Virus record (IMG/VR): IMGVR_UViG_3300046331_000135
Coordinates: 1 to 30,904 of that record
Direction: 5' to 3' (one strand)
DNA length: 30,904 nucleotides
From: a virus
Under the pieces are notes generated by a model, which saw only the letters and a program-made list of their open reading frames with translations, was not told the DNA's origin and ran no database searches. Positions 2,324 to 30,904 of this stretch are shown here, in pieces (the stretch's first letter is position 1; each line of letters begins with the position of its first letter). The translations under genes were made by a program, and so were the position numbers.

Positions 2324-2445
2324 AAAAAATTGATAAAAGATACGAAAATATTTTCGAACAGGAAAAGAGATTAAAAAAAGAGGCTAAGGAATTAGCAGAA
2401 AAACACAAGGACACAAAACCAATTAAGTATTTGATAAAGAAATAA
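2320..2445 (+). CDS. Very small basic helical protein (GTG start)
   Basis: A 41-residue ORF from GTG 2320-2322, which overlaps the preceding stop, to TAA 2443-2445. The product is almost wholly charged (MKKIDKRYENIFEQEKRLKK, then further Lys/Glu helix and KYLIKK). The tight GTGA coupling and the lack of any other gene in the interval support it. A match to a TTTG box used by the next promoter (2430-2433) lies inside its last codons. Function unknown; it could be non-functional. Confidence 0.5.
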   Translation: MKKIDKRYENIFEQEKRLKKEAKELAEKHKDTKPIKYLIKK

Positions 2446-2458
2446 TTTATTATATTTG
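2430..2458 (+). promoter_or_regulatory. Bacteroidota-type promoter for the first HNH gene
   Basis: TTTG at 2430-2433 and TATATTTG at 2451-2458 are separated by 17 bases, matching the Bacteroidota TTTG/-33 and TAnnTTTG/-7 consensus. Transcription should start within a few bases of 2463, exactly where the first leader hairpin begins. Confidence 0.6.
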
Positions 2459-2462
2459 CATA

Positions 2463-2541
2463 TGTAGAGTGGTCGCTACAATTTAAAATATTAATTGAAA
2501 TCCCATCAGGATAAAAGACGACCACCTTTTTGAATGATGGG
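2463..2541 (+). promoter_or_regulatory. Structured leader RNA, copy 1 (kissing-loop/pseudoknot)
   Basis: Hairpin 1 pairs TGTAG (2463-2467) with CTACA (2476-2480) around the loop AGTGGTCG. Loop bases GTGGTCG (2469-2475) are perfectly complementary to CGACCAC (2519-2525). That segment lies inside the loop of hairpin 2, formed by CCCATCA (2502-2508) and TGATGGG (2535-2541). An AT-only linker separates the two hairpins. The ATG of the HNH gene follows 11 bases after hairpin 2, behind a U-rich stretch. The same plan occurs at 3893 and 30401 with compensatory changes. Its role is probably in expression control, by inference. Confidence 0.8.
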
Positions 2542-2552
2542 TATTTTATTTT

Positions 2553-3101
2553 ATGGAAAAAAAAGAAATTTGGAAAAAAGTAATTGGTTACGATTATGAT
2601 TATGAAATAAGTAATTTTGGAAATTTTAGATGTAAAAATCCATTTCATAAATTATATCAAAATGTAAATTATAAACAAAGCAAAGATGTAAAAGGCTATT
2701 TAAGAGTTGGATTAGTTTTAGATAAAAAAATAAAAACAATAAAAACTCATCGATTAGTTGCAATGTATTTTATTGAAAATTTTAATCAAAATTTGACAGT
2801 TAATCATATTGATTTTAATAAAACAAATAATCATGTTTCTAATTTGGAAATGCTTACAAATGTCGAAAATGTTTTACATTATCAAAAAGAGGTTATTCAA
2901 AAAAAATCAACTTCAAATACAATTGGAGTTGGATTTCATACAGGAATAAATAAATGGACCTCAAGAGTAACATATAATAACAAAAGATATAGTGTTGGCA
3001 CTTACGATACGGAAGAGGAAGCTATAAAAGCTCGTGAAGATTTTAACAACAACATAGAAAAATTAAAAATAGGTAAAGGAAAATCAAACAAAAAAAAGTA
3101 A
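2553..3101 (+). CDS. HNH homing endonuclease (NUMOD4-HNH-AP2)
   Basis: A 182-residue protein with three modules. Residues 5-27 (EIWKKVIGYDYDYEISNFGN) are a NUMOD4 motif. Residues 66-109 are an HNH nuclease core with His66, the Asn84-His85-x-Asp87 segment, Asn92/93 and the usual NLE and VEN pattern. Residues 120-165 are an AP2-type DNA-binding domain (IGVGF, W-x-S-x-V, VGTYDTEEEA). It is a free-standing selfish or regulatory nuclease that would nick or cut DNA. It has its own promoter and the structured leader at 2463-2541, and is followed two bases later by the MazG-like gene. The ATG at 2553 occupies the same position relative to the leader as in the second HNH gene. Confidence 0.93.
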   Translation: MEKKEIWKKVIGYDYDYEISNFGNFRCKNPFHKLYQNVNYKQSKDVKGYLRVGLVLDKKIKTIKTHRLVAMYFIENFNQNLTVNHIDFNKTNNHVSNLEMLTNVENVLHYQKEVIQKKSTSNTIGVGFHTGINKWTSRVTYNNKRYSVGTYDTEEEAIKAREDFNNNIEKLKIGKGKSNKKK

Positions 3102-3103
3102 TT

Positions 3104-3406
3104 ATGAAATACAATGAATTAGAAAAATTGGTTATAAAATGGGCAAATGATAAGGAAATTTTCACAAAAGGAAACAAAATGTCTCAGGCTTTAAAAACTT
3201 TAGAAGAGGTTGGGGAACTTATAAATTCAATTCATAAAGATGATAAAATTGGAGCATGTGATGATTTGGGGGATATATTAGTTACAATAATTATCCAAGC
3301 TGAAATGCAAGGTTTGAGCCTTGAAGAGTGTTTATTAAGTGCCTATAACGTAATATCAAAACGTAAAGGACAAATGATCAACGGGCAATTTGTAAAAGAG
3401 GAATAA
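3104..3406 (+). CDS. MazG-like nucleotide pyrophosphohydrolase
   Basis: A 100-residue all-helical protein with the MazG signature: E34-E35-x-x-E38 in TLEEVGEL and the second metal site D53-D54-L-G-D57 in CDDLGDILV. MazG-family enzymes hydrolyse (d)NTPs to monophosphate and pyrophosphate using magnesium. In phages they are thought to adjust nucleotide pools or ppGpp-like alarmones. The length fits the single-domain phage form. It lies two bases after the HNH gene and probably shares its transcript. No obvious terminator follows; an A-rich stretch leads into the next promoter. Confidence 0.9.
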   Translation: MKYNELEKLVIKWANDKEIFTKGNKMSQALKTLEEVGELINSIHKDDKIGACDDLGDILVTIIIQAEMQGLSLEECLLSAYNVISKRKGQMINGQFVKEE

Positions 3407-3433
3407 AAAAAAATAAAAAAAAATTGATTTTTA

Positions 3434-3464
3434 TTTTGTAATTAAAAAATATTTATTAATTTTG
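3434..3464 (+). promoter_or_regulatory. Early-type promoter
   Basis: TTTTG at 3434-3438 and TAATTTTG at 3457-3464 are 18 bases apart. The stretch 3440-3464 matches 27854-27878 at 24 of 25 positions, which marks a shared phage promoter type (AATTAAAA near -25, TAnnTTTG at -7). It would drive the 3507 gene. Confidence 0.6.
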
Positions 3465-3506
3465 ACAAAGAAATTAAAATTATAACCAAAACAAAAAATC
3501 AAAATC

Positions 3507-3725
3507 ATGACAACTCAAACATTTTTAAACAATTTAGAATCAACTCAAAAAGAATTATTTGCAAATCAAAAAGTTTTATTAAGATCATTTAATAATTTTT
3601 TAAGCGACAACCAAGAATTTAAAACTGAGTTTTTTAAGGCAAGTCAAAAAGAACAAGAAAGTATTTTTAAATATGTAGTTTTTGAGGTTATTGGAAAAAT
3701 AGCAATTGAAAAAACTTTTAACTAA
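3507..3725 (+). CDS. Small hypothetical early protein
   Basis: A 72-residue helical protein (QKELFANQKVLLRSFNNFL, then FKTEFFKASQKEQESIF) with no recognised family. It has its own promoter at 3434-3464 and an A-rich leader ending AATCAAAATC-ATG, the same leader used by the 27900 gene. The coding sequence is extremely AT-rich. It is probably an early gene that acts on the host, but this rests only on size and promoter type. Confidence 0.65.
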   Translation: MTTQTFLNNLESTQKELFANQKVLLRSFNNFLSDNQEFKTEFFKASQKEQESIFKYVVFEVIGKIAIEKTFN

Positions 3726-3761
3726 AAACAATCTAAATTGAAACTGATTCAAAAAAAATAC

Positions 3762-3769
3762 TACATTTG
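3762..3769 (+). promoter_or_regulatory. Possible promoter of a small RNA
   Basis: TACATTTG matches TAnnTTTG, with a TTG at 3738-3740 about 21 bases upstream. No ORF follows before the terminator at 3807-3842, so this box would give a transcript of about 65-70 nt. The box alone is a weak signal in DNA this AT-rich. Confidence 0.35.
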
Positions 3770-3789
3770 TATTGATTTTGAATTATGTT

Positions 3790-3804
3790 TTGGTTAACAT
3801 GGTA
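3790..3804 (-). repeat. 15-base inverted-repeat partner of 1360-1374
   Basis: TTGGTTAACATGGTA here is the exact reverse complement of 1360-1374. Both copies are non-coding. It may be an RNA pairing site or a shared protein-binding site. Confidence 0.6.
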
Positions 3805-3806
3805 AG

Positions 3807-3842
3807 ATAGGGGTTGTTTACTTTGAACGCCCCTATTTTTTT
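3807..3842 (+). terminator. Intrinsic terminator
   Basis: ATAGGGG (3807-3813) pairs with CCCCTAT (3830-3836) and is followed by a T run to 3842. GTT/AAC pairs inside the loop may extend the stem. It separates the 3507 gene from the second HNH unit. Confidence 0.8.
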
Positions 3843-3854
3843 AATAACCTTAAA

Positions 3855-3889
3855 TTTTGTATTTATTAATTAAAAAATAATTATCTTTG
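3855..3889 (+). promoter_or_regulatory. Promoter for the second HNH gene
   Basis: TTTTG at 3855-3859, AATTAAAA beginning at 3868 and TATCTTTG at 3882-3889 form a Bacteroidota-type promoter. The expected start lies within a few bases of 3893, the first base of the leader hairpin. Confidence 0.6.
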
Positions 3890-3892
3890 CTT

Positions 3893-3968
3893 TGTAGAGT
3901 AGTCGCTACAATTAAAAATTTATATAAATTCCAGCATTGATAAAGACGACTACCTTTTGACATGCTGG
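3893..3968 (+). promoter_or_regulatory. Structured leader RNA, copy 2 (kissing-loop/pseudoknot)
   Basis: Hairpin 1 is TGTAG (3893-3897) with CTACA (3906-3910) and loop AGTAGTCG. Loop bases GTAGTCG (3899-3905) pair perfectly with CGACTAC (3947-3953). Compared with copy 1, one loop base changed from G to A and its partner changed from C to T, keeping the pair. Hairpin 2 is CCAGCAT (3931-3937) with ATGCTGG (3962-3968), which differs from copy 1 at several positions on both strands yet remains fully paired. The linker contains the palindrome AATTTATATAAATT. The start codon follows nine bases after hairpin 2. Confidence 0.8.
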
Positions 3969-3977
3969 TTTTATTTT

Positions 3978-4493
3978 ATGGAATGGAAAGCAGTTTATTA
4001 CAACGGATTAGAAACAAACGTTGAAGTTACAAAATGTGGCAAAGTAAGAAAAATTAAAGTTGATTGGTATGGTGATCATTTTAATTGTAAAATTGGCGAA
4101 GTAAATTTTAGTAAATTAAAATTAACATCTGAAGGTTATAGGCAAATAGGGATTCAAATAAAAGGATTAAAAGCTAAACAAATTAAATTGCACCAGTTAA
4201 TAGCTTCAGCATTTTTAAATTACAAATTTAATGGGCATAAAAAAGTTGTAATGCATTTAGATGACAATCCTTTAAATAATAATTTAAATAATTTAAAAAT
4301 AGGAACTCATAGAGAAAATATGTCACAAGCAAGAACAACTAAAAGTGGATTGCCAGTTGGAGTTTGTTTTGATAAACAAATGAAAAAATATAGATCTCAA
4401 ATTTATATTAATGGCAAAAGAATTTTTTTAGGTCTTTTTAAAACTATTGAAGAAGCATCAAATACTTACCAAAATAAATTAAAACAAATATAA
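3978..4493 (+). CDS. HNH endonuclease with AP2 domain
   Basis: A 171-residue protein. An N-terminal strand region takes the place of NUMOD4 (residues 12-30, VEVTKCGKVRKIK). The HNH core spans residues 72-115, with His72 (LHQLIASAF), His93 in VVMHLDDNPLNN, the Asn-rich NLNNLKIGT and His111-R-E-N114. The AP2 domain spans residues 124-165 (GLPVGVCF, YRSQIYINGKR, LGLFKTIEEA). I place the start at ATG 3978 rather than an upstream TTG at 3957 because 3957 falls inside leader hairpin 2 and 3978 matches the spacing in the first HNH gene. It is probably a free-standing homing nuclease related to the first but well diverged. Confidence 0.88.
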   Translation: MEWKAVYYNGLETNVEVTKCGKVRKIKVDWYGDHFNCKIGEVNFSKLKLTSEGYRQIGIQIKGLKAKQIKLHQLIASAFLNYKFNGHKKVVMHLDDNPLNNNLNNLKIGTHRENMSQARTTKSGLPVGVCFDKQMKKYRSQIYINGKRIFLGLFKTIEEASNTYQNKLKQI

Positions 4494-4822: not shown

Positions 4823-5419
4823 ATGCAGAAATTTAAAATCAGCGAGATAAAACTCAACCCAAACAATCCACGTTTAATAAAAGACGACAAATTTGAAAAG
4901 CTGGTAAAATCTATAAAAGAGTTTCCAGAGATGTTAGATATTAGACCAATTGTAGTTAATAGCGATATGGTAATACTTGGAGGTAATATGCGATTCAAAG
5001 CATGTAAGGAAGCCGGATTAAAAGAAATACCAATAATAGTAGCCGACAATCTAACAGAGGAGCAACAAAAAGAGTTTTTAATTAAAGACAATACAAGTGG
5101 TGGGGAATGGGATTTTGAAGTATTAGCAAACGAATGGGATAACGAACAACTTGAGGATTGGGGATTAGATCTTGTGGGTTTTGATATTGATGCAGATGAA
5201 TACGGAGAGGATTTCAGCTTGCCAGACGGAGACAAATCGCCTTTTCAACAAATGACTTTTACTTTAGCAGACGAACAATCTGAGCAAATAAAAAACGCAA
5301 TAGCAGACATCAAAGCAACAGAGGAATACAAATACGCTGAGACAATGGGAAATGAAAACTCAAATGGAAACGCACTTTATTTAATTATCATGCAATGGGT
5401 AGAGCAAAGGAAATATTAG
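4823..5419 (+). CDS. ParB-like N-terminal domain protein
   Basis: A 198-residue protein with a ParB/Sulfiredoxin-type N-terminal domain: ISEIKLNPNNPR (residues 6-17), PIVVNSDMVILGGNMRF (42-58) and RFKACKEAGLKEIPIIV (57-73). The GGNMR box at 53-57 corresponds to the GxxR nucleotide-binding loop; members bind CTP or ATP or act as nucleases. There is no ParB helix-turn-helix or dimer domain. The acidic C-terminal half (DIDADEYGED, residues 131-140) is typical of phage versions found near terminase genes. The next gene overlaps it by 25 bases, which points to joint action with the Mom-like protein. Confidence 0.85.
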   Translation: MQKFKISEIKLNPNNPRLIKDDKFEKLVKSIKEFPEMLDIRPIVVNSDMVILGGNMRFKACKEAGLKEIPIIVADNLTEEQQKEFLIKDNTSGGEWDFEVLANEWDNEQLEDWGLDLVGFDIDADEYGEDFSLPDGDKSPFQQMTFTLADEQSEQIKNAIADIKATEEYKYAETMGNENSNGNALYLIIMQWVEQRKY

Positions 5420-6129
5420 TCAAAGTAATACCGTCAAAGATTGCAAATGAGTTTATAAAGAAAAACCATTACAGCGGTAAAGTAGTTCCAAACTCAACTT
5501 TACATTTTGGATGTTTTTTAGATAATAAATTGCATGGAGTTTTAAGTTATGGAAGTCCTTTTGTTAAAAAAAATGTTTTACAACTTGTAAAAGATAGCGA
5601 ATGGAATTCAATGATTGAGCTTAACAGAATGGCATTTGATGACTATTTACCAAAATATAGTGAAAGCCGTTGTATTGCAATAACAATAAAATTAATTAAA
5701 AAAAATGCTCCTCAAATTAAATGGATTTTAAGTTTTTCAGACGGTGCAAGTTGTGGAGACGGTACAATTTACAGAGCCAGCGGCTTTAAATTAATTGGTA
5801 TAAAAGAAAACAACGGTATATTTAATTATAATGGAGAAAACATACATGGCAAAGTATTATGGGATAGAGGAGTTTCAAAAAGTTGGTGTATAGGAGATAA
5901 AGAACTTGAGTTAATTAGAAGTAGAGGAAACCAAATTGAAAGGCTTGATGGTTTTCAATTAAAATATATTTACTTAATTGACAAAAGTTGTCAAATCACA
6001 GTTCCGGTTTTGCCTTTTACTAAAATTGACGATATTGGAGCTGGAATGTATAAAGGCAAAAAAATAACCCTATCCGAAAGACAGGGTTTAAATGAGAGCG
6101 ATGTAATAGATTCGAACTTTACTTCTTAA
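5395..6129 (+). CDS. Mom-like DNA modification protein (GNAT-like fold)
   Basis: A 244-residue protein resembling the Mu Mom family, which adds a carbamoylmethyl group to adenine N6 and protects phage DNA from host restriction. Visible family features are NHYSG at 24-28, GVLSYG at 48-53, ELNRM at 75-79, SESRCIA at 89-95 and SFSDGA at 113-118, followed by G-x-IYRASGFKLIG. It overlaps the ParB-like gene and lies directly upstream of terminase, the usual context in such phages. Its last 23 residues (222-244) are encoded opposite a minus-strand terminator and tRNA-like gene, so the C-terminal tail may be an extension caused by an insertion. No Com-like regulator was seen. Family assignment is by motif pattern. 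Confidence 0.75.
   Translation: MGRAKEILVKVIPSKIANEFIKKNHYSGKVVPNSTLHFGCFLDNKLHGVLSYGSPFVKKNVLQLVKDSEWNSMIELNRMAFDDYLPKYSESRCIAITIKLIKKNAPQIKWILSFSDGASCGDGTIYRASGFKLIGIKENNGIFNYNGENIHGKVLWDRGVSKSWCIGDKELELIRSRGNQIERLDGFQLKYIYLIDKSCQITVPVLPFTKIDDIGAGMYKGKKITLSERQGLNESDVIDSNFTS
6058..6088 (-). terminator. Minus-strand terminator of the tRNA-like gene
   Basis: Read on the minus strand, AACCCTGTC (6088-6080) pairs with GATAGGGTT (6074-6066), and U7 follows at 6064-6058. One pair is A-C on the + strand but G-U on the minus strand, and only the minus side has a U-tract, so the element works in the minus direction. Confidence 0.75.
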
Positions 6130-6167
6130 CTGGAATGTCAAGCGTGCAACCATTACACTAACATCGC
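6097..6167 (-). tRNA. tRNA-Gly(TCC)-like gene, minus strand, unusual anticodon loop
   Basis: On the minus strand, GCGATGT (6167-6161) pairs with ACATCGC (6104-6098) as a perfect 7-bp acceptor stem. TA follows, then a D-arm GTGT-AATGGTT-GCAC with the GG of the D-loop. The anticodon stem is CTTGA/TTAAG and the T-loop is GTTCGAATC. The T discriminator and GCG start fit tRNA-Gly. The loop CATTCCAG contains T-TCC-A, giving a UCC anticodon for GGA, a very common Gly codon here. Oddities are an 8-nt anticodon loop (or a 6-nt loop under a 6-bp stem), a weak T-stem with a bulge, a total of about 71 nt and no encoded CCA. A -7 box upstream and a terminator downstream make a complete unit antisense to everything else. 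Confidence 0.6.
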
Positions 6168-11861: not shown

Positions 11862-11893
11862 AAAAGCCTATGCAATTTGTATAGGCTTTTTTT
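11862..11893 (+). terminator. Intrinsic terminator after the major capsid gene
   Basis: AAAAGCCTAT (11862-11871) pairs with ATAGGCTTTT (11881-11890) as a 10-bp stem with a 9-base loop, and the T run continues to 11893. It separates the capsid gene from the connector genes. Confidence 0.9.
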
Positions 11894-11894
11894 A

Positions 11895-11902
11895 TAAATT
11901 TG
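11895..11902 (+). promoter_or_regulatory. Promoter box restarting transcription of the connector/tail genes
   Basis: TAAATTTG lies immediately after the terminator and 23 bases before the ATG at 11926, so transcription could resume here. No clear -33 element is visible because the terminator occupies that region. Confidence 0.45.
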
Positions 11903-11925
11903 TATAAATTAAAATATTAAAGAAA

Positions 11926-30370: not shown

Positions 30371-30395
30371 AATTAAAATAAAATTTTTATATTTG
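30371..30395 (+). promoter_or_regulatory. Early-type promoter of the replication gene
   Basis: AATTAAAA begins at 30371 and TATATTTG is at 30388-30395, the same layout as the other early promoters. The expected start lies just before the leader hairpin at 30401. Confidence 0.55.
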
Positions 30396-30400
30396 GCAAT

Positions 30401-30485
30401 GTTATTGTTCGGGCAGGCTCAATAACTATTAAGATTTTAATAAATAGCTCACAAAAGTAAGTCCTGCCCGACTGAAATTGTGGGC
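30401..30485 (+). promoter_or_regulatory. Structured leader RNA, copy 3 (kissing-loop/pseudoknot)
   Basis: Hairpin 1 pairs GTTATTG (30401-30407) with CAATAAC (30420-30426). Its 12-base loop contains TCGGGCAGG (30409-30417), perfectly complementary to CCTGCCCGA (30463-30471). Hairpin 2 pairs GCTCACAA (30447-30454) with TTGTGGGC (30478-30485), with one G-U pair, and encloses the partner segment. The plan is the same as in copies 1 and 2, but nearly every paired base differs. The replication gene's ATG follows 18 bases later, after a U-rich stretch. Confidence 0.8.
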
Positions 30486-30503
30486 TTTTATATTTTTAAA
30501 AAT

Positions 30504-30904
30504 ATGGCAGAAAACAAAAAATCCTTTGTTTTATATTCAGACTCAAAAGGATTAATCGACCAACTTCCAGACGATATTGCTGGTAGATTATTTAAACACA
30601 TTTTCGCTTACGTTAATGACGAAGATCCGATTAGTGAAGAGCTTATTTTAAATATTGCTTTTGAGCCTATTAAAACCCAGTTAAAAAGGGATTTAGTAAA
30701 ATGGAGCAATCAAACAGAACAACGAAGACAAGCGGGTTTAAAAAGTGCTGAAATCCGTAAACGAAATTCAACGGAAGTCAACGAGCGTTCAATTTCGTCA
30801 ACTGATAATGTAAATGTAAGTGTAAATGATAATGTAAGTGAGAATGTAAGTGAAAGTGTTATTCTTTTAAAAAAAGAAACAAAAAGTATATTTAGCTTTG
30901 AGCG
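30504..30904 (+). CDS. Replication protein, DUF6291-like (partial; continues at base 2)
   Basis: This partial gene gives 133 full codons. The N-terminal region (SFVLYSDSKGLIDQLPDDIA, then LFKHIFAYVNDEDP and AFEPIKTQLKRDLVKW) matches the DUF6291 domain of phage replication proteins from Bacteroidota. A tract of Asn, Val and Ser (NVNVSVNDNVSENVSESV, about residues 102-119) is a low-complexity linker, common before the DNA-binding or helicase-interaction region. Its DNA holds short direct repeats. The reading frame agrees with the frame at 2-118, which would complete a protein of about 172 residues. Confidence 0.8.
   Translation, partial: MAENKKSFVLYSDSKGLIDQLPDDIAGRLFKHIFAYVNDEDPISEELILNIAFEPIKTQLKRDLVKWSNQTEQRRQAGLKSAEIRKRNSTEVNERSISSTDNVNVSVNDNVSENVSESVILLKKETKSIFSFE
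30813..30852 (+). repeat. Iteron-like direct repeats inside the replication gene
   Basis: AATGTAAGTG occurs at 30813-30822, 30831-30840 and 30843-30852, with related GTAAATG units between them. They code for the Asn-Val-Ser linker. An origin within the initiator gene, as in lambda O, is possible but inferred. Confidence 0.55.

Follow-up and report, generated by a model that had tools for sequence, protein, structure and literature searches.

In plasmid attenuators controlled by antisense RNA, such as that of pT181 repC, a loop-loop contact is coupled to a terminator before a replication gene; engineered forms of these attenuators exist (PMC3753616, PMC4878617). The repBA-type pseudoknot (Rfam PK-repBA, RF01089) activates translation. 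In phages, T4-type homing endonuclease genes lie under RNA hairpins, namely I-TevI/II/III, segB and mobE, as does seg43 of Aeromonas phage 25 (PMC2988022); each such leader is a single hairpin that sequesters the Shine-Dalgarno sequence and is thought to restrain expression. The HK022 put RNA of lambdoid phages has two stems, lies close to the 5' end of early transcripts and has been proposed to act on transcription in cis. It is an antiterminator that binds the zinc-binding domain of RNA polymerase, and neither a loop-loop helix nor a T-run has been reported for it (PMC9378689).

The virus record analysed here (the window, 30,904 bases) carries three leaders, numbered 1, 2 and 3 along it. As in the T4-type systems, a structured 5' leader precedes phage homing endonucleases, but the leaders of the window consist of two kissing hairpins (P1 and P2) followed by a T-run and do not involve a Shine-Dalgarno sequence, and leaders of this class are found before replication genes too. 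Neither a Shine-Dalgarno sequence nor a start codon was found in a helix; the start codons are located 6-77 nt past P2, outside all helices. In the pT181 repC-type attenuators an antisense RNA supplies one of the two loops as a separate molecule, whereas here both loops belong to one transcript. The PK-repBA leaders are similar in the distant pairing of a 5' hairpin loop and in their position before a replication gene, but leader 3 reached a covariance score of only 12 against the Rfam cut-off of 45 bits. For put, the architecture was compared with the description in PMC9378689 only.

The order of elements was the same in leaders 1 and 2 (Table 1): a sigma-A TANNTTTG box, P1, a linker of 19-21 nt, P2, the T-run and the ATG. 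P1 was composed of TGTAG, an 8-nt loop and CTACA. P2 contained a G+C-rich lower stem, an internal loop (about 4x4), a short upper stem and an 8-nt apical loop, of which 7 nt could pair with the P1 loop (7 bp). It had been claimed in the first-pass annotation that the same leader stands before two HNH genes and that both copies keep TGTAG/CTACA, the loop pairing, AAGACGA and TTTTATTTTATGG; the sequence and the pairing confirmed the leader at both places, with all of these features kept. In F. psychrophilum maps, TANNTTTG occupies positions -12 to -5 (PMC9723704), and the -33/-7 promoter elements are TTTG/TANNTTTG (PMC6847099). Since the box ends a few bases before P1, P1 should start at about +1 and the transcript should begin at P1.

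Table 1. Coordinates of the leaders and of the adjoining genes in the window
Feature	Position	Strand	Basis or remark
Leader 1	2451-2552	+	TANNTTTG box to base before ATG 2553
Leader 1, plausible -33 element TTTG	2430-2433	+	sequence; published -33/-7 consensus
Leader 1, -7 box TATATTTG (sigma-A, Bacteroidetes)	2451-2458	+	sequence and published consensus
Leader 1, hairpin P1, TGTAG-AGTGGTCG-CTACA	2463-2480 (2463-2467/2476-2480)	+	near expected +1
Leader 1, hairpin P2	2502-2541	+	lower stem 2502-2508/2535-2541; upper stem 2513-2517/2526-2530
Leader 1, kissing helix	2469-2475 with 2519-2525 (CGACCAC)	+	P1 loop and P2 apical loop
Leader 1, T-rich run	2542-2552	+	directly 3' of P2, up to start codon
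NUMOD4 + HNH_3 + AP2-like endonuclease, 182 aa	2553-3101	+	Pfam; AP2 below Pfam cut-off
Leader 2	3882-3977	+	TANNTTTG box to base before ATG 3978
Leader 2, -7 box TATCTTTG	3882-3889	+	sequence, promoter-anchored detector
Leader 2, hairpin P1, TGTAG-AGTAGTCG-CTACA	3893-3910 (3893-3897/3906-3910)	+	stem pairing
Leader 2, hairpin P2	3931-3968	+	lower stem 3931-3937/3962-3968; upper stem 3942-3945/3954-3957
Leader 2, kissing helix	3899-3905 with 3947-3953 (CGACTAC)	+	P1 loop and P2 apical loop
Leader 2, T-rich run TTTTATTTT	3969-3977	+	after P2
HNH_3 + AP2-like endonuclease, 171 aa	3978-4493	+	start ATG 3978, not TTG 3957
Leader 3, -7 box TATATTTG	30388-30395	+	sequence, promoter-anchored detector
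Leader 3, hairpin P1, TTATTG-TTCGGGCAGGCT-CAATAA	30402-30425	+	pairing, detector
Leader 3, hairpin P2, AGCTCACAA/TTGTGGGCT	30446-30486	+	pairing, both rules; 11b counterpart with compensatory changes
Leader 3, kissing strand CCTGCCCGA	30463-30471 with 30409-30417	+	pairing
Leader 3, T-rich run TTTATATTTT	30487-30496	+	after P2
DUF6291 protein (phage replication protein family)	30504-30902	+	runs off window; Pfam

The proteins encoded behind leaders 1 and 2 were well diverged, as had been noted, with 34% identity over 115 aa. The start of the second gene, which had been placed at 3978 from the leader, was backed by a homologue at locus L037, 60% identical to the second protein, which has no leader and begins with the same Met. 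When the two proteins were used as protein-only queries against IMG/VR, no relative was found for the first and three loci only for the second.

Two pattern scans of IMG/VR were performed, one with P1 and part of the P1 loop fixed and the other with TTTG added. Among the distinct matches of the second scan, 23 of 24 had an exact 7-nt loop complement downstream and the 24th paired with one G-U; such a complement occurred in shuffled downstream sequence at a rate of 0.4%. Covariation was analysed in an alignment of 24 distinct leaders, 2 from the window and 22 from the scans and similarity searches, the latter having been found by P1/promoter patterns or similarity and not by the kissing partner. 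P1 was nearly invariant in this set because it had been fixed by the search pattern. The kissing helix was paired in 100% of the aligned leaders, with both-side changes at 2 of 7 pairs, and the P2 stems covaried, double changes being present at 6 of 7 lower-stem and 3 of 4 upper-stem pairs. The covariation score was 0.330; shuffling gave 0.086, and slid versions never exceeded 0.083. Copies found with the model or descriptor had other P1 and loop sequences with intact pairing, for example TATCG-AGGACTAG-CGATA, and the kissing pair of the FCV-3 leader was GTAGTGC/GCACTAC. The predicted energies, about -3 kcal/mol for P1, -10 for the kissing duplex and -16 for P2, do no more than make the helices plausible. 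Nature offers a test of how far the structure is conserved in two orphan proteins (MKILRTDGGGESF; loci L092 and L096), which are orthologues with 89% identity; their leaders are only 61% identical and keep the pairing.

A leader without an HNH gene, which the first-pass annotation had placed at 30401, was also seen; a DUF6291 gene lies downstream of it, and phage 11b contains a counterpart. The architecture of leader 3 was that of leaders 1 and 2, its sequence was unrelated to theirs, and the covariance model of the other leaders scored it at background level only (16 bits, E 0.2). Its class membership therefore rests on the architecture and on the 11b counterpart, which was reached via the downstream protein, the leader 3 region itself having no nucleotide match among phages. 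The 11b leader had the same kissing strands, and paired changes were found in P1 (G-C to A-T), in the upper stem (AGT/ACT to AAG/CTT) and in P2. Leaders were located upstream of the DUF6291 operons of hattifnatt, lillamy, 11b and elemoC; a weaker form was present in phi19:3 and phi13:2, where P1 is weak and the call rests on the long-range helix and P2. DUF6291 homologues in elemo phages are annotated as 'replication protein'. No leader was detected at the DUF6291 genes of Riemerella RAP44, Shewanella ZP9, Vibrio 1.074.O and MT835521.

The distribution of the leaders was studied with two rules, of which the first, a promoter-anchored detector, did not use the T-run and the second required it. 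In the window, the first rule gave three strong + strand sites (2451, 3882 and 30388) and one weak - strand site, and ten dinucleotide shuffles of the window gave about 0.1 matches per + strand and 0.5 per - strand. The second rule gave the identical three sites; neither the - strand nor any of six shuffles yielded a match. The first rule combined with the T-run yielded 27 matches in 597 kb of phage records, which express no frequency since many of these records were picked for holding a leader, and 0 after shuffling; there was no match in 316 kb of Flavobacteriaceae chromosome. First-rule matches in FCV-3 (17677, 19092, 25589 and 8684) and elsewhere were chance-like by eye and were left out as leaders. 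The detector gave no match in phages 6H and B124-14. Nothing was found when 397 Flavobacteriaceae genomes were compared with model R1, a weak search with 11 candidates scored per genome and no positive control, and of 8 matches in a genome-wide pattern scan the only real one was L051, a phage-looking contig.

Judging by these sequence comparisons, leaders 1, 2 and 3 belong to one class of Bacteroidetes phage 5' leader RNAs, in which the P1 loop is complementary to the P2 apical loop (7-9 bp in most cases), there is a T-run after P2, and the ATG lies 6-77 nt further on. The genes behind the leaders encoded NUMOD4/HNH_3 enzymes, GIY-YIG enzymes, an HNH-like zinc-ribbon family that matches no Pfam entry, a Lin1244_N replication-type protein, DUF6291 proteins, a helicase (hattifnatt gp034) and small orphan proteins. 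A conserved orphan of 78-79 aa (MNTLLVQGFKIDINHF...), with no Pfam match, was repeatedly found behind a leader in IMG/VR contigs (L012:4608, L039:1626, L046:10438(-), L040, L041, L044 and others). The leaders before small orphans at L108:14334, L102:2940(-) and L110:10239 share an element between P2 and the ATG, AATAGTT..GGTAATCTT.AAACC, perhaps another small hairpin.

No family of Rfam release 15 reached its gathering cut-off over the leaders, and a permissive search of leaders 1 and 3 gave sub-threshold matches only. A self-cleaving ribozyme and a guide RNA were rejected because they had no Rfam support. An IscB/TnpB-type guide RNA was likewise rejected, since the downstream proteins were small NUMOD4/HNH_3, GIY-YIG, replication or orphan proteins and no guide-RNA family of Rfam matched. 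A word-based search of the open-access literature found no description of this leader.

The sequence following P2 was rich in T: on average, 6.1 of 8 nt were T, and at least 5 T were present in 43 of 44 distinct leaders, although T was not used by the first rule, whereas comparable places upstream of ordinary phage genes contained 2.7 of 8. In the 11 leaders in which P2 ended at least 20 nt from the ATG, there were 5.5 T beside P2 vs 3.2 beside the ATG, and the T-run therefore goes with P2. The last 5 bp of P2 had a G+C content of 63% vs 37% for the leader; a G+C-rich hairpin base directly precedes the T-run, as in an intrinsic terminator or attenuator. The distance between P2 and the ATG varied from 6 to 77 nt, which differs from the fixed spacing of a ribosome-occlusion device, and P1 started mostly 3-6 nt past the -7 box, where +1 is expected. 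Taken together, the link between the T-run and P2, the variable distance to the ATG and the position of P1 favour a reading in which P2 is a terminator and the leader an attenuator. The chances appear to be about even that the leader is a kissing-loop transcription attenuator in which P2 and the T-run act as a terminator tied to P1; the structure is borne out by the sequences, and from it we infer attenuation.

According to this proposal, P2 with the T-run would be an intrinsic terminator between the promoter and the gene, and P1, made early, would capture the P2 loop on its emergence. The kissing helix could then nucleate and stabilise the interrupted P2, raising termination, or it could be the state on which a trans factor acts for read-through. 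With either option, the endonuclease and replication genes would be kept low until some signal of the infection stage. Several points speak against the proposal. As no competing antiterminator helix was seen, a switch would have to rely on a trans factor or on the kinetics of folding. A standard terminator scan of 2400-4100 found 0 terminator-like sites; P2 has an internal loop. The T-runs were interrupted by A, and a few leaders had no T-run directly after P2 (L098, TATATAAGCA, and L144).

Because the T-run lies within the translation start region in most copies, a translational role is possible. The folded leader would then limit ribosome access to the start codon just 3' of P2, as hairpins do for the T4-type endonucleases. 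T4 endonuclease genes are repressed by hairpins that sequester the ribosome binding site, a hairpin lies immediately before seg43 of phage 25 (PMC2988022), structure in the start region reduces translation in F. johnsoniae (PMC6847099), and P2 ends 6-12 nt before the ATG in about half of the leaders. However, this distance is not conserved over the class (6-77 nt), the start codon and its flank are outside the helices, the T-run stays with P2 and not with the ATG, and this phylum, the Bacteroidetes, has no Shine-Dalgarno sequence that a hairpin could sequester (PMC6847099), which makes translational control unlikely. It is quite improbable that the nascent folded leader binds the elongating RNA polymerase as put does, conferring resistance to pausing and termination, with the T-run of P2 a mere pause site. 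The leaders share the placement of HK022 putL, which opens an early phage transcript, as well as the length of about 70-90 nt and the two stem-loops, and putL needs no protein factors (PMC9378689). Nevertheless, neither a loop-loop helix nor a terminator-like T-run has been reported for put, the words 'kissing' and 'pseudoknot' being absent from the text of PMC9378689, and lone endonuclease genes of 0.5 kb offer few downstream terminators to overcome.

Protection of the mRNA, in which P1, placed right at the 5' end, and the rod that it builds with the kissing helix and P2 would block 5'-end-dependent decay and lengthen the lifetime of the message, agrees with the start of P1 a few nt from the expected +1 and with the occurrence of the class before unrelated genes, as a generic function predicts. 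A 5' hairpin alone would suffice for this purpose, though, and the conserved kissing pairing and the T-run after P2 would be left unexplained; only a small probability is given to it. Finally, the near-palindrome TGTAG...CTACA by the promoter could be a repressor site in DNA, the RNA pairing being incidental, since it sits directly after the -7 box and P1 is nearly invariant in the pattern-selected set. But P1 was fixed there by the search pattern and other copies have an unrelated P1 with intact pairing, while covariation is seen in both P2 stems and in the kissing partner, which lies 40-50 nt away. The DNA operator, very improbable indeed, was rejected on this covariation.

To judge the association of the leader with endonucleases, 160 IMG/VR loci gathered with two endonuclease alignments, leaders being disregarded, were used. 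By the first rule, 9 of 72 and 9 of 66 non-redundant loci had a leader; after shuffling, none of the 138 upstream regions did. At loci that had a TANNTTTG box and an upstream space of 90 nt or more, the leader was found in 12 of 25, and at loci with less than 60 nt upstream in 0 of 61. Reading of the other 13 by eye revealed further copies with a weaker P1 or P2. A relaxed rule, made after some loci had been read by eye and hence partly post hoc, added 9 of the 25, giving a partly post hoc 21 of 25; in all 133 loci included in its count, it found a leader at 29, again partly post hoc, and at 0 of 665 shuffles. The first-pass annotation had counted a lack of leaders at most close homologues against its own reading. 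Most loci were indeed leaderless (104 of 133), but the sample mixes hosts and operonic genes, and the leaderless loci were mostly of other hosts or without upstream room. As many hosts are mixed, this protein-selected sample gives no frequency for Bacteroidetes phages alone.

The suggestion that the leader travels with the endonuclease stood in part. In phage filifjonk, the gene that matches hattifnatt gp040 has an SSB-like gene 10 nt behind it (empty site), whereas in hattifnatt a promoter, a leader and an HNH gene, in this order, stand between gp040 and an SSB-like gene that is divergent. On its left the insert begins just past the gp040 stop and before the promoter; on its right, divergence obscures the boundary. 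Leaders with 93-96% identity were found before non-homologous frames (leader 2 of the window and L100; L093 and L046), and proteins with 72-89% identity had leaders only 58-61% identical. From the empty site, the near-identical leaders on unrelated frames and the leaderless L037, it follows that the leader moves with endonucleases yet is swapped between them. The 12 of 25 loci (21 of 25 by the relaxed, partly post hoc rule) also speak for joint travel. As a feature of HNH genes the leader did not hold up, since it also precedes GIY-YIG and replication genes and the 60%-identical HNH gene lacks it. The idea that both leaders respond to one phage regulator found no support; loop sequences differ between copies in one phage, which argues against a factor reading the loop sequence. 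As far as these comparisons go, phages of Flavobacterium-type bacteria carry the leader at the 5' end of homing-endonuclease and DNA-replication messages, and the module has been picked up time and again by mobile endonucleases that are unrelated to one another.

It is conceivable, at somewhat below even chances, that these leaders are an undescribed class of cis-acting kissing-loop attenuators on early genes across Bacteroidetes phages, also taken up by at least three unrelated homing endonuclease families as a portable expression module, leader and endonuclease recombining as separable cassettes. Regulation in Bacteroidetes phages is poorly known, and their promoters and translation starts are unlike textbook ones; an RNA module recognisable from sequence would be a handle on the timing of early and replication gene expression and would explain how freestanding homing endonucleases could stay in step with any phage they entered. 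The many natural variants with distinct loop pairs are suited to a direct mutational test.

Several minor observations were made. The site before the SSB-like gene holds a ParB-like gene in morran (L307:592-1472, morran9-1), a leader and endonuclease in hattifnatt (L108:13256-13880, hattifnatt9-1) and nothing in filifjonk, and the SSB allele adjoining the hattifnatt endonuclease is divergent, as co-conversion could leave it. On the - strand of the window, a tRNA-like match at 6096-6167 (Rfam tRNA, 38.6 bits) overlaps the end of ORF 5395-6129; ARAGORN gives it a two-base anticodon and cannot name the amino acid. At 11864-11915, a clean terminator-like hairpin (AAAAGCCTAT...ATAGGCTTTTTTT) was seen by eye; a TAAATTTG box comes next, and then a small ORF.
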